DNA from: Tetracentron sinense
Taxonomy: Eukaryota; Streptophyta; Magnoliopsida; Trochodendrales; Trochodendraceae
Assembly: GCA_015143295.1 (NCBI GenBank)
Contig: JABCRI010001343.1
Location: 682,001 to 746,000, forward strand
Direction of reading: 5' to 3'
DNA length: 64,000 nt
How positions within the stretch are numbered: the stretch's first letter is position 1; each line of letters starts with the position of its first letter. The position numbers were made by a program, and so were the translations under genes. The notes beneath the pieces are model-generated. The model saw only the letters and a list, made by a program, of their open reading frames with translations. It ran no database searches and had not been told where the DNA came from. Below are positions 49,405 through 63,406 of the stretch, piece by piece.

Positions 49405-51400
49405 TAAAACGGTTGAAAAATGACCGAAATGCCCCTATAGCGTAAAATGACCAAACGCCCCTGAAAATTGGTCAAAAGTTATGATTTCATCCGAAACAAT
49501 TTTACAAATTTTTCGGTTCAATTTTGGCTATTTTTGGGCTCAAAATAGGCTTAAAACGATAAAATAGTTTTTTCGGCAAATAGGAGCATAAACAAAAAAC
49601 CAAAAAAACTCATTTTTGAAGACCCAAACAGGCCCTAAGGGGCAAGCTCGCCCTTTTAAAAAGGCGCGGGACCATGTGGGCCCACTTGCACTACAAATTT
49701 CATTTTTTATTATTTTATTTATTCATAATAAAATATATTAAATCGCGCCTTTTAAAAAGGCGCGGATTTAGAAATATCGGTTGCCGACGCGTTGCCGACT
49801 CACTGTTCATACCGCTTTAACTATTCATTAAAATATAATAAATCGCGCCCTTAAAAGGCGCGGACCCCGTTTGAAAAACTATAAATACCCCCCACCCCTT
49901 TCTTTATTCTTCATTCCTTTCCACTTGCTCTCTTCTCTCTCCTCTTTCGAAAATCCCCCTTTTGGCGTCGGCGATCCCGGGAACTCGATTTCGAAGAATC
50001 GTTCTCGGGAGCACTTAATTCAGAGACCCTTTTGGGTTTCCTGGAAGGTAAATCGCCGAAACTCTGACGTTTGCTTTGTCATTTATTAGTCTAATTATTT
50101 TATTGTTTTTAAATACTTAGACTGCTTATCCTGTCGAACCCCTGCCCGGTTTTACTTAAACCCGGCTTACCCTGTCGAACCCCTGCCCGGTTTTACTCAA
50201 AACCCGGCTTACCCTGTCGAACCCTTGCCCGGTTTTACTTAAACCCGGCTTACCCTGTCGAACCCCTGCCCGGTTTTACTCAAAACCTGGCTTACCCTGT
50301 CGAACCCCTGCCCCGGTTTACTCAAAACCTGGCTTACCTTGTCAAACCCCTGCCCGGTTTTATTCAAACCCGGCTTACCCTGTCCAACATCTGCCCGGTT
50401 TTATTCAAACCCGGCTTACCCTGTCGAACCTCTGTCCGAACTTCGGTTCAAACATACCATACCCTGTCGAAACCCTGTCCGAATCTCGGCTCAAACCTTG
50501 ATTCAAAACCTCACCTAAACCATACCTAAAACCCTAATCAAACCCTAGTTGACTCCAGTTACCCTACCTAAACCCTAGTTACCCTACTAAACCCCAGTTA
50601 CCCTAACTGAACCCTAGTTAACCCTAGGTAGACCTTAGTGACCTCTAGTTAAACCTTAACTAAACCCTAAGTCAAACCTTACCCACCTAGTTGAACTTTT
50701 GTCTAGAAACTCCGCTCAAACTCTGTTTCAAATCCCATCAAACCCTAAACCCAAAGGCTCCTTGACATGAGCTAAAACTGTCCAAGTGCTCCTTGACATG
50801 AGCCAAAACTGTCCAAACGCTCCTCAGCACGAGCTTAAAAGGTCACCTCGCTCCTCTAACAGGAGCAAAAACCCCTGAACCATTCAAAAACACCCTAACA
50901 TCCAAATACCAATTTCAGCTTCTCAAACACCCATAATCCAAACACCCAACAAATCAAACTATCAACTCCCATCTGGAACTACGTGTGGCTTGATTCCACT
51001 GACTGTGGATACGTAGGCAACCCTGATCGGGTTCAGCTCACCTAGGATAGAACCCCTATCCTGTCCCGGCTTACTTAACATGTACATTACTGTTCATACA
51101 ATAGTTTGTCAAGCATATAGATGAAATACAAGTCTCTCTTATGGTTTCCCCCACGTTAATTCAGACTTAAGGAGTAGGTAACCATCTCCGGATGGGAGTT
51201 TAGGGGTGCCTAACACCTTCCCCTGACTCAAATGAACCCTTACCTTGAACTCTAATTCCAGACCAAAGCCTTATCCATCTTTAAGGGACCCTATTTCCCT
51301 CACAATCTAAATAGGTGGCGACTCTACTCTTTTCAACATTTTTAACAGCTATTCCTCTCGGGTCAATCCTGATCGGGAGTGGGGGTTAAAATGTATAGGT
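49405..51400 (-). mobile_element. Gypsy-like LTR nested in the Copia element
   Basis: Read on the minus strand near its start it has AGAGTCGCCACCTATTT and then GTTGCCTACGTATCC, the same order as in the LTRs at 17.2 kb and 57.5 kb, so it is a relative in reverse orientation. It carries about nine tandem units of 45-47 bp at 50128-50430 (TGTCGAACCCCTGCCCGG) and AAACCCTA-rich DNA at 50500-50760. Its exact ends are unclear; short CTGGA words lie near both. Confidence 0.6.
50128..50430. repeat. Tandem repeat, about nine units of 45-47 bp
   Basis: The unit core is CTTACCCTGTCGAACCCCTG followed by CCCGGTTTTACT and AAACCCGG. It lies inside the nested LTR; CCCGGTTT and AAACCCGG form a small inverted pair per unit. 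Confidence 0.85.
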
Positions 51401-57342: not shown

Positions 57343-58453
57343 CTCTGTAGTAATAGAGTACATGTATGGTTATGATATGCATGAGATGCAGCATATCATA
57401 ACCATCATCACAATTGGAAGGATTTGGATTTAATATGAGATTGAGATTGAGATTTGATTAGTGTGAGCACGGGTTTTCACTTCCCTAATTAAATCTCACG
57501 AGATTTGAATTGTTTAGAGTCGCCACCTATTCGTTCAAATGCCTAAGTTTTTAAGATAATACTAATTTAAGAAAGAAAAGTTAACTAGGGTCAAACTCGA
57601 GTTGGGTTGCCTATATACTCACAAGGTGAGATAAGACTGAGCGTAGTTCTGGCACATAGGCCCGTGCCAAGGCTAGGGGGTGTGTGTGTGTGCACCAAGG
57701 GTAGCTAATGGACTAGTCTGGTAGACTAGGGTTTGGTTTATCGAAGTTGGTCAAGTTCATGATTTAAGCCCGGTAGGTTCAAGGTTTAGTCCGATAGACT
57801 AAGGATTAGGCCCGGTAGGCCAAGGGTGAAGCCCGGTAGGCTAAGATAAAGTTTGACTAAGGATAGGGTTGCTAACCGGGGTTAGGTCAAACTAACCATG
57901 ATTAGGATTGTTAACCACAGTTAAGGGAGGTATGATCAAGCTCGATAGGCTGAGATTGGGCCCGGTAGGTCAAGAGATTAGGCTCGGGGGGCCAATAGAT
58001 GTTAACCAAGGTTAAGGTTGCTAACCGGGTTAAAAGGGTAAAGTAACCATGGTTAGGACTGCTAACCATGGTGAGGAGGCCAAAGCAGTAACATTTTGAG
58101 CACATAGCAAAATTTCAGAATTTGATGAAATTTTCCAGATTTTTTCAAGGGTTAAGAGTTGCTTAACCATGGTTAAATAGATAAGTCATCATGGTTAAGG
58201 TTGCTAATCATGGTAAAATTGCCAAAGCAGGACATTTTTTGGTATTTCAGAATATTTCTGATTTTGGTGGTATTTTTCCAAATTTTATCGAGGTCAATGG
58301 TTGCTTAACTATGGTTAAAAGTTAACCAATGGTCGGTTTAACCATGGTTAAGGGTCTGGATAGATCAAGATGGGCTCAGAGGGTATGGCAAGGCCTACAA
58401 TGACCTCCTACCAGGTCTGGGCCCAGTGCAAAGCCCAAAATCACAGCAAGTCA

Positions 58454-59345: not shown

Positions 59346-60641
59346 TCAAGATTTTTGAATTTTTAGGGTGTGTGGACCCCACCCCAACGGTTCCTAGGGT
59401 TTGTGGGCCCCTGTTTGGGCCCACAGAAGGTTCTGGGCCTTGGATTTTAGGGTTTTTGGACCCTTGGGCTGAATTAGGTCGGTCTTCGCGTTTTTGCAGA
59501 AATTTCAGTAAGGGCTTTTTCGTCATTTGGGCATTTCATCCTTGCTTTATAAGCCTTGCACGAGCCTAAGGGTTTCATAAACCCTTAGGGCAGATATTTG
59601 AGAGAGAGTGGGAGAGGAGAAAGGGGTTCTAACCTAGGGTTTCATCTTGAGAGTGAATCAAGGGTTTAAACACCCAAGATCATCCCAAAAAGGGCGTGGA
59701 TTCATCAAATCCAATCTCAAACTCGTGTGGCATTCCCATTCCAAGCTAGGGCAGCGATCCTTGTTCTACGGCATTTTGAAAGGGGTTTCTTCCCCAAATC
59801 AAGCCTTCTTCAAGTAAGGGTTCTTCCCTACCATTTGAGGTTCGATTTCAAGGTTTCTTCAAGGTCAAGCCTTGATTTCAAGGTTAGTACACTCTACTAA
59901 CTTCATTAGTGATAACCTTGATTTTTCTTCCTCAAATATGATGATTTTATATGTTGTATGTCCCTTTTTATTGAGTTGTGATGAAATCCCTATAATAAAT
60001 AAGATAAATGGATAAAGGTGTGGAAATGTGTGAATGGATGGTGGATTGTGGCGAATGGGTGCCGTGTGGGGTGATGTATGTAATGGGATGGATAATGGTG
60101 GAAGGGCATTTTCAACATAATGAACATACCTTTGTGATGGATGAAAAACATGCACTAAGCAACTTAAATAAAAAGGCTATCATAGTGATGCTTACCAAGT
60201 GTTTGAGAAAATGTTTAAATGATGATTTGAATGAGTGAATTTGAATTATAAAAGCATGCATTGAGTTATTCTTTCTAAAATGCCTATCTTGATCAAATGT
60301 GCTACATGTCATTTACATTTCCATATGCTCATATTAAGAATTGAAATGCTATGCTCATGTGACCATCATACTCAAGTATGTCCTCATGCCTACCACAATT
60401 TCTACACACACGCACGCATGCTTGCATGAACTGGGTTTATTTCACGAGTATTAGTGCATGAGAAATAAAACGAGAAACAAGCATATGTCAAGGAGGTTGG
60501 TAGCCCAGGGATGTGCGGGTGCTAGCCTCTGGCTCACAAGTTAAACGAACATGAATATCAAGGGTAGGGCATATCCCTAGGATATGTCATACCTGGCTCA
60601 CAAGAAAACACGACGAGCAAGGATCAAGAAACATGGAAGGG

Positions 60642-60930
60642 TGTTAGTGTACTAAGACTAGGTACGAGCACTAACATCTGTTCCCCAACACGCATGAAAG
60701 TATGCTAGTGTACTAAGACCAGGTACGGGCACTAGTGTATGTTTCCAAGACAAGCATGAAAGGATGTTAATGTACTAAGACCAGGTACGGGCATTAACAT
60801 CTGTTTCCAACAAGTATGAGAGGATACTAGTATACTAAGACCAGGTACGGGTACTAGTATCTGTCTCCAAGCGATAATCAAGAAATATGGAAGGGTGATG
60901 ATGTACTAAGACCAGGTACGGGCATTGTCA
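60642..60930. repeat. Five tandem hairpin units with co-varying stems
   Basis: Left and right 8-nt arms are 60642-60649/60669-60676, 60703-60710/60730-60737, 60765-60772/60792-60799, 60825-60832/60852-60859 and 60896-60903/60923-60930, always 19 nt apart. The spacer is near constant, TACTAAGACCAGGTACGGG. Arms are TGTTAGTG/CACTAACA, TGCTAGTG/CACTAGTG, TGTTAATG/CATTAACA, TACTAGTA/TACTAGTA and TGATGATG/CATTGTCA. Each pair is fully complementary if G-T(U) pairs are allowed. Confidence 0.9.
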
Positions 60931-62639
60931 TCTGTTCCCAGGCAAACAAGAAAACTCATGAGCAAGTCAACAAGAACATACGCATAATACTCACTCACGA
61001 GACAAGAACCGGGCAAGAACCTAGTACGTCCGTCCAGTTCATAGTTCGGGTACTAGCTAAACCAGAACAAAACAAGGCAGGTGTGATTTCCACGATACGA
61101 GAACAAGTCATGACTTTTGGATACGAATTTACAATGCATGAGTTGATGTTCATGATTCACTTACGTGGTTATGTTGTTTTAGCTTCCGCGCTCTGAATTT
61201 GTATCTCTTGGGTGAACTGTATCATGTAATACATGTTATGCTATTGTTATTACTATTGTTAGTTAGTAGCTTGTACTCGCTGAGTATTCCATGCTCAGCC
61301 GTACTTTTATGTCGGAAGGTACATTATGCAGCATATGAACTCTTGCCCCTTGGATCGAGGCAGCTCGGGGTGAGCAGGAGATTCTTCGGATGGTTACCTA
61401 GATATTAGGAGACGTGGCGTATGGCCAACGATTGGGATGAGCGAGAGAGAGAGACATGTATTTTGGGATTTCCTTGGGTACCTAGGGTTAGACTAGGGTT
61501 TACTTAGGGTTAGGCTTAGGGCTCAACTAGGGTTAGGCCTAGGGTTTGACTAGGGTTTACCTAAGGTTAGGGTTTGTTCTAGGGTTAGGCCTAGGCGTGA
61601 CTAGGTTTTGACCAGGGTTTACCTAGGGTTTGACTGGACTCAGTTAGGGATAACCATGATTAATGAGATTAACCATAGTTAGGGCAGGATATAAAAATTT
61701 GGTGCTTACAATTAGGATTTGATTAGCATTAGATTAGGAATGGTTTGATTTATTTCTATATTTATCTATATACTATTATCTATTTAAACCCTAGTTGGGT
61801 CTCTTTGTAATCGTCTTGAGAATTCAATAAAATCAGTTTGTCTTTATGGTATCAGAGTGGGTCGATCCTACCCGACTTAAAAAATTTCTCTTGTTTACCT
61901 TTGTTCTTTAGTTGGCACGAACCTTTTCAGCGGGCGGCCTTCAATGCCTCCCGTCTGGTTTCCCTTTTTGTTTTAGGTTACATGCTATGGCTTTTGCGTC
62001 AATGGTGGTGGTAGTGGAGCTGCTGGGAGAGTGAATGAGGTGAGAAGGAAAATACTTCTCTTACAACCTTTTCTTGCGGGGTACTCCAAACAAGTCCACA
62101 CATACATACCACCATCCTAAACTCTCTGTATCTCTCTTTCTTTTCTCTAAGCCTTATCTTATTTTTTTTTTCTTCCCCTTTATGATCAGTTGCACCAAAC
62201 CTCCAGCCCCATCTTTTTCTTCAAAAGCAGCAGCCCTGGTTCACCGCTCATCACTGAAACCATTGTCCTAGGACGTGCTCGCAACAAGCACCCTTGTCCT
62301 ACAACCTTTAACCCTCGCCCCATGATCCTGCTAATCTTCCATACTGACGAGTGCTCCACATGCCTCAATGTGGTGGTAATTTTTTTTTTTTGAGTTTTCT
62401 TTGTCAAGATACAATGTTCTTGGGACCAATTTGGTCATCACTCATCCAACAGTTTCAATACCAAGACATCACCATAAGCAACAACTTCATCCAGTTTCAC
62501 GCCAATTCTTGATTTTTCCCTCTTGAATTGCCTTTCCGACGGGTTGAAGATGTAGCTTATTCGAGATGAAGAGGGATGCGATATGGTAGTGGAGGTTGCT
62601 GCCATAAATGTGTCAATGGCAGAAGGGGTTAGCCACAAC

Positions 62640-63000: not shown

Positions 63001-63406
63001 CCCGTATTATTCTCTCTTCATGCAACACATCAACAATAGTGACGATTGGAAACTCTCATCTGCAATGACATTAGAATGACTAGCAAGCTACCTTACCTAA
63101 TCAAGTATCAAACTCACGCATATTTTCAAATCTACATGAGTTTGAGGGGAAGTAATAGAGTACATGTATGGTTATGATATGTATGAGATGCATCATATCA
63201 TAACCATCATCACAATTGGAAGGATTTGGATTTAGTATGAGATTGAGATTGAGATTGAGATTTGATTAGGATTTGATTAGCATTAGATTAGGAATGGTTT
63301 GATTTAGTTTCTATATTTATCTATATACTATTTTCTATTTAAACCCTAGTTGGGTCTCGTTGTAATCATCTTGAGAATTCAATAAAATCAGTTTGTCTTT
63401 ACTCTG

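Follow-up and report, generated by a model that had tools for sequence, protein, structure and literature searches.

Retroviral packaging signals sit behind the splice donor. In plants, gag-only non-autonomous LTR elements are known as TR-GAG, and we know of no hairpin array described in that class. To our knowledge, the cis-acting signals by which plant Ty3 elements package their RNA are poorly known. Family-specific tandem arrays are described for plant Ty3 elements (Retand), where they occupy the interval from pol to the 3′ LTR (PMC11963269, in the part of the article available to us); the words “hairpin” and “inverted” have no occurrence in the main text of that article, to the extent that it was available. 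Here, we describe an array of tandem hairpins within an LTR fragment in a window of 64,000 nucleotides (the whole stretch of DNA that was analyzed) from the Tetracentron sinense assembly, which comprises 1.16 Gb in 1479 contigs. The array is probably a tandem series of sense-strand RNA hairpins on the R-U5 or leader side of a long LTR in a Ty3-type group of elements, and we infer a function for it from the features described below.

The hairpins are built around the 19-nt loop TACTAAGACCAGGTACGGG, which starts at positions 60650, 60711, 60773, 60833, and 60904 of the window (unit-to-unit spacing of 61, 62, 60, and 71 nt), is exact in four of five units, and carries two mismatches in unit 1. 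A search of the window for TACTAAGACCAGGTACGGG with up to three mismatches returned five matches versus a mean of 0.00 in 100 shuffles. The five tandem units with a nearly constant 19-nt spacer, described in the earlier note, are therefore present. The arms assigned to them there do flank the spacer on both sides and pair fully, but their length of 8 nt was too short. Each of these units (type A) consists of a 15-nt left arm, the loop, and a 16-nt right arm with one bulged G; the stem has 15 pairs, with 11 inner pairs followed by the bulged G and then by 4 outer pairs. On the forward strand, the units occupy positions 60635–60684 (loop 60650–60668), 60696–60745 (loop 60711–60729), 60758–60807 (loop 60773–60791), 60818–60867 (loop 60833–60851), and 60889–60938 (loop 60904–60922). 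The outer four pairs co-vary too (GGAA/TTCC, GAAA/TTTC, and GAGA/TCTC). The G-T pairs noted before in units 2 and 5 were seen, but unit 1 also has such pairing, and the inner helix is closed by G·U in all five units.

The region 60490–60600, where further units of the same kind had been suspected, does contain two hairpins, but they are of other types. Hairpin H1 (60492–60530, forward strand), formed by GGAGGTTGGTA ... TGCTAGCCTCT, belongs to type B, and H2 (60562–60595, forward strand) is formed by GGTAGGGCATATCC cta GGATATGTCATACC with one more basal pair. A weak hairpin of yet another, fourth type, resembling type C, H8 (CTAGTAC ... GTACTAG), lies at 61021–61056 on the same strand; the type C array is known from another locus, L054. 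Thermodynamic support for the window hairpins taken alone is modest. The folding z values of units 1 to 5 were −2.5, −1.1, −2.8, −1.8, and −0.5 on the forward strand and −0.4, +1.3, −1.5, −1.3, and +0.4 on the reverse strand; for the whole hairpin region, z was −1.84, and 5 of 100 shuffles folded equally well.

When arm pairing was assessed in the window array, the true arms paired at 15 of 15 positions in all five units, compared to an average of 12.85 for swapped arms, and of 120 permutations, only the true arm assignment reached this. The true assignment was again the single best one, at 1 of 5040, 1 of 720, and 1 of 5040 permutations, in the sister arrays L079, L082, and L091, which contain 7, 6, and 7 units, respectively, each with 13 to 15 of 15 positions paired. 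The arms thus change together and every unit keeps its full stem, as had been claimed. Arms changing independently in other copies had been named as the outcome that would speak against this claim; sister arrays and family copies instead pair with different arms. Overall, the earlier observation of co-varying tandem hairpins is confirmed and is stronger than first described. Within each of the four arrays, units are 71.5 to 76% alike in their arms and 93 to 96% alike in their loops.

All 31 distinct type A units were then combined into one set (A2), in which 98.1% of 465 cells are paired. Double changes are found at 8 of the 15 stem pairs and one-sided changes at 5; one pair is invariant, and one departs only by an unpaired cell. 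The covariation score of A2 was 0.494 versus 0.262 ± 0.015 for shuffled sets (0 of 500 as high) and a slid maximum of 0.143; the type A rows are related, so that shuffled controls overstate significance and these figures are not probabilities. Two of the five covariation measures did not rise above the shuffles, namely, the number of double-change pairs (192 of 500 as high) and that of further pair types (497 of 500). A hand-chosen subset of 24 units (A1) gave a score of 0.486; two of the seven units outside it carry an arm mismatch.

The hairpins lie in LTR sequence, as the earlier note had stated, although what is present is a fragment lacking both LTR ends. Positions 59479–61481 (forward strand) correspond to nucleotides 394–2390 of an LTR 2.61 kb long that belongs to a gag-only Ty3-type element. 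The fragment matches 28 of 29 other first loci over ~2 kb at 98 to 99% identity and the remaining one over 1.5 kb. The whole element at one locus, L033, has two 2.61-kb LTRs (99.77% alike over 2611 nt) that start with TG and end with CA, a target-site duplication CTCTA, a primer-binding site (PBS) that we take to be a match to initiator tRNA-Met, and a purine-rich tract preceding the 3′ LTR. Its 2.8-kb internal region contains a gag open reading frame (ORF) of 401 amino acids with matches to Retrotrans_gag (1.7e-17), Ty3_capsid, and zf-CCHC (a zinc knuckle). No pol was found in the internal 2.8 kb of this one element, where the only further sense ORF of at least 90 amino acids is an overlapping one of 111 amino acids; the domain scan covered the 401–amino acid ORF only. 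With its LTR pair, target-site duplication, and gag without pol, L033 qualifies as a gag-only (TR-GAG–like) Ty3 LTR element, and the hairpin array is oriented in the sense of gag.

Two genomic sites, C12:13288781–13288929 and C12:13289010–13289209, match the sequences on either side of the window fragment at 89%. The 2003-bp LTR piece without ends therefore looks like a fragment inserted into other repeat DNA, perhaps by break repair. Directly after it, at 61482–61640, there is a degenerate telomere-like repeat, CTAGGGTTTGA, with related stretches at many genomic places. Two repeat pairs at 97% among 57349–57454, 61753–61846, and 63151–63401, together with the PBS-like TGGTATCAGAG at ~61849, suggest a small LTR element with ~4.3 kb of sequence, the LTR fragment included, splitting its 5′ LTR. 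A tandem array with a period of ~41 to 42 nt occupies positions 50083–50480. Elsewhere in the genome, three array copies in a row, spaced by ~5.43 to 5.45 kb, are found at C4:19698465–19709647 and C5:25711534–25722755, an arrangement that would be expected of LTR-internal-LTR-internal-LTR tandems. The upstream part of the LTR (L033 998–1196) contains repeated palindromes, e.g., ACCGATCGATCGGT, that are possibly promoter sites.

To the 3′ side of the array lies a 37-nt block (61279–61315, forward strand) that is part of a stem-loop and is followed by an acceptor-like site, GGAAG in the window. The block has 1842 exact copies in the genome (885 forward and 957 reverse), while a reversed-pattern control gave 0. 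Seventy-eight block-bearing regions, including the window, formed 14 clusters, one with 51 members and eight of them singletons. These regions were selected by the exact block at 70 of 100 places (of the 1842) on contigs C1 and C2 only; the remainder were the window, L031 to L033, and second blocks in the same loci. Folded representatives of all 14 clusters have at least two similar tandem hairpins before the block, as judged by eye, and array length across the family is 2 to ~10 tandem hairpins.

At least four stem types, A to D, occur at the same place in the LTR. Type A is found in the window copy and L079. Type B (GGAGGTTGGTA ... TGCTAGCCTCT) is the commonest: its exact arm pair is present in 244 of 361 candidates defined by their flanks, a set that includes chance hairpins, and in a tandem-repeat run (TRF, 30 loci) it was the commonest unit among the matches listed. 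Type C, from L054, has a 24-nt loop and 7 units, each with 7 of 7 inner positions paired; here, 144 of 5040 permutations equaled the true order, which is the count predicted for arm exchange confined to two stem classes. Type D has a period of 120 nt and is found in L047 and L048. Types A and B fit one frame, sharing a basal G·U and having CGGG or AGGG at the loop end, and by-eye comparison suggests that they are old relatives. A sister LTR adjoining L021 (in L031) is ~70% alike before the array, which here consists of four type B units in the corresponding position. A pair of the type B family with 7.6-kb spacing, of which two 1.2-kb pieces were analyzed, has open frames on the array’s strand that match reverse transcriptase, protease, and integrase (Integrase_H2C2, SH3_Tf2-1, RVT_1, and RVP_2, with rve below cut-off); as to a Tekay/Del chromovirus, the analyzed piece ends inside the SH3 match, before any chromodomain position. 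The array strand is the sense of gag or pol in both families checked.

Type B units have several fixed G·U pairs and a double change from GGAGG/CCTCT to GGGGG/CCCCT, but their stems are mostly uniform and therefore tell little about covariation, the test of which rests on type A. This uniformity, together with copy numbers that differ among type B arrays, is what slippage or unequal exchange in ordinary tandem repeats would produce with no structural selection. As an explanation of the arrays as a whole, such repeats are extremely improbable, since the permutation tests contradict them for the co-varying type A and since several different stem/loop types are found at one place.

In a DNA palindrome, G·T and A·C mismatches are strand-equivalent, whereas of the two only G·U pairs in single-stranded RNA. 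Among the 26 distinct type A arm pairs, with the constant wobble excluded, there were 26 G·U, 5 A·C, and 4 other mismatches. A sample of 100 units, the first of 1950 in the genome that match the loop exactly, contained 45 distinct variants with 26 G·U, 8 A·C, and 29 other mismatches. The sense strand folded better than the antisense strand in 30 of 31 type A units and in 85 of 86 type B units (the latter retained for comparison when 9 or more of 11 positions were Watson-Crick, G·U, or A·C). The excess of G·U over A·C and the better folding of the sense strand favor selection on sense RNA. We also performed a strand-blind scan of 78 copies that counted each distinct hairpin once; being noisy, it is not our main evidence. 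It yielded 202 distinct hairpins with 293 G·U and 135 A·C, chance hairpins and shared ancestry included. In the window cluster, the direction was contrary (18 A·C versus 12 G·U, chance hairpins included), and in L054, the counts were near even (7 G·U and 5 A·C). Shuffled copies gave 4 to 7.5 chance hairpins each versus 5 to 10 observed, and 3 of the 14 clusters were below, at, or near the shuffled count (5.5 versus 7.5 in L100, 5 versus 5 in L083, and 5.6 versus 5.0 in L045b). Single-stranded cDNA of the same polarity is an alternative to RNA that these comparisons do not separate; G·T pairs are weaker in DNA.

These results bear on the idea that the units are DNA palindromes serving as an LTR enhancer, either as dimeric transcription factor sites or as cruciforms. 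Tandem repeats in U3 are able to regulate transcription (PMC3601003, in the part of the article available), and some type A arms are palindromic in themselves (ACTAGT). However, palindromes of this kind should keep fixed half-sites around a free spacer, which is the opposite of what is seen here, and neither the strand asymmetry in G·U nor that in fold energy would be expected of them. We consider this explanation very unlikely and favor sense-strand RNA hairpins over DNA palindromes.

The earlier note had considered a fold under selection, either in RNA or in single-stranded DNA, along with a copying process; of these, sense-strand RNA is favored and copying is disfavored. Fold-back template switching or strand transfer during reverse transcription could rewrite one arm from the other with no selection involved, and arms that vary more than loops, as well as A2 double changes that have no wobble intermediate (G-C to U-A and C-G to A-U), agree with such a process. 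Yet it predicts Watson-Crick arms with no strand preference, while G·U exceeds A·C and 30 of 31 type A units retain the G·U at the foot of the stem. In addition, arm changes in genomic copies are mostly uncompensated. A loop-anchored search for left-arm letters absent from the window array found a complementary partner in 0 of 10 units at position −1, 1 of 35 at −3, and 10 of 55 at −5 (the lists overlap, with some units in more than one), and all ten compensated cases at −5 were C-G. We read the uncompensated left-arm changes as decay of dead copies, which by themselves give no support for selection. The ten C-G cases look like an older compensated state, of which 26 C·A cases perhaps represent the decay. 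By the counts from this search, genomic copies are not being efficiently corrected, and the double changes belong to replicating lineages. Since most genomic changes are uncompensated, no efficient arm rewriting acts on genomic DNA. Rewriting could be confined to replication or reverse transcription, but selection on RNA is the simpler reading, and copying overall appears quite unlikely.

The place of the array in the transcript was approached through the motifs that flank it. A donor-like motif, AAG/GTTAGTACACTCTACTAAC, is located at 59880–59900 on the forward strand, with a putative 5′ splice site after 59882. The donor-like AAG/GTTAGTACAC is present upstream of the array in 11 of 17 loci (10 of 14 clusters), and L086 has a variant. 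In L054, the sole donor-like match is inside the array and unrelated, and four loci have none; among loci without the motif, the upstream reach was only 1500 nt in L047, L054, and L059; L095 and L082 lack the motif with a reach of 1700 nt. At the other end, the 37-nt block runs into GG[CT]AG (GGCAG or GGTAG) in 15 of 17 representatives, a conservation that is partly by choice, as all 17 were selected for the block. Between the window copy and the sister LTR, both motifs are nearly identical, whereas the intervening sequence has mostly diverged. This pattern suggests that the array sits in a putative intron between the donor-like and acceptor-like motifs. A search for the putative spliced junction with up to 2 mismatches gave 0 genomic matches in the two families searched, and such absence of spliced genomic copies fits no splicing and unpackaged spliced RNA equally. 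A TATA-like box at LTR position 462 would put the array ~0.9 to 1.4 kb into the transcript; this position is uncertain because the sister copy lacks the box.

RNA hairpins bound by a protein combine a fixed loop with stem letters that are free to vary as long as they pair. The hairpins would thus act as folded RNA, with the fixed loop and the bulged stem base read by a protein while stem letters drift in pairs. We tentatively propose, with somewhat less than even confidence, that the reader is the element’s own Gag or a host RNA-binding protein and that the array tags the full-length genomic RNA to be packaged or exported. We rank packaging or sorting highest in view of the array’s position in the leader, the zinc knuckle of Gag, the sharing of the array with gag-only elements, and its possible removal by splicing; splicing control, export, and translation of the long leader are rival RNA roles. 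Lying between the donor-like and acceptor-like motifs, the array would be stripped from spliced RNA, and gag-only elements that carry it could borrow the machinery of pol-bearing relatives. A more far-reaching version, which we regard as unlikely, is a modular platform in which the loop types of one hairpin plan are recognition cassettes that can replace one another within a removable intron of the leader; each family with its gag-only partner would sort its own unspliced RNA into particles, and stem drift would limit mispairing and recombination between neighbors. If the proposed role is true, then a structured RNA module that can be tested is present in a very abundant plant LTR group, whose flanking block has 1842 exact copies; the module is common to gag-only elements and a family with pol, and the occurrence of several loop types at one place would allow partner specificity to be tested.

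In a search of window positions 59400–61600 with Rfam 15 covariance models, there were 0 matches up to E = 1. The literature searched (titles and abstract openings, with few subscription journals covered) yielded no account of tandem hairpins that co-vary within a plant LTR. Retand arrays are likewise tandem, family-specific, and carried by plant Ty3 elements but, according to the available part of PMC11963269, lie outside the LTR. Like TR-GAG, L033 combines an LTR pair, PBS, and polypurine tract with a single gag ORF and no pol. The likeness to the psi signals of MLV and HIV-1 consists in a row of stem-loops in the leader RNA of a reverse-transcribing element, possibly 3′ of a splice donor, and the array does have the conserved stem-loops on the genomic strand by which retroviral-type packaging signals are judged. 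Most type A and B units have UCUG at the base of the stem, which is reminiscent of the MLV NC motif (PMC2951377, partial text) but is a lead only, as the tetranucleotide is partly paired here and is UAUG in unit 2. Psi also differs in that 2 to ~10 tandem hairpin copies are present here inside the LTR, with drifting stems in type A, and the packaging role is putative. The tandem co-varying form is without precedent in the literature searched, and by class, the array belongs with the structured cis RNAs of LTR elements.
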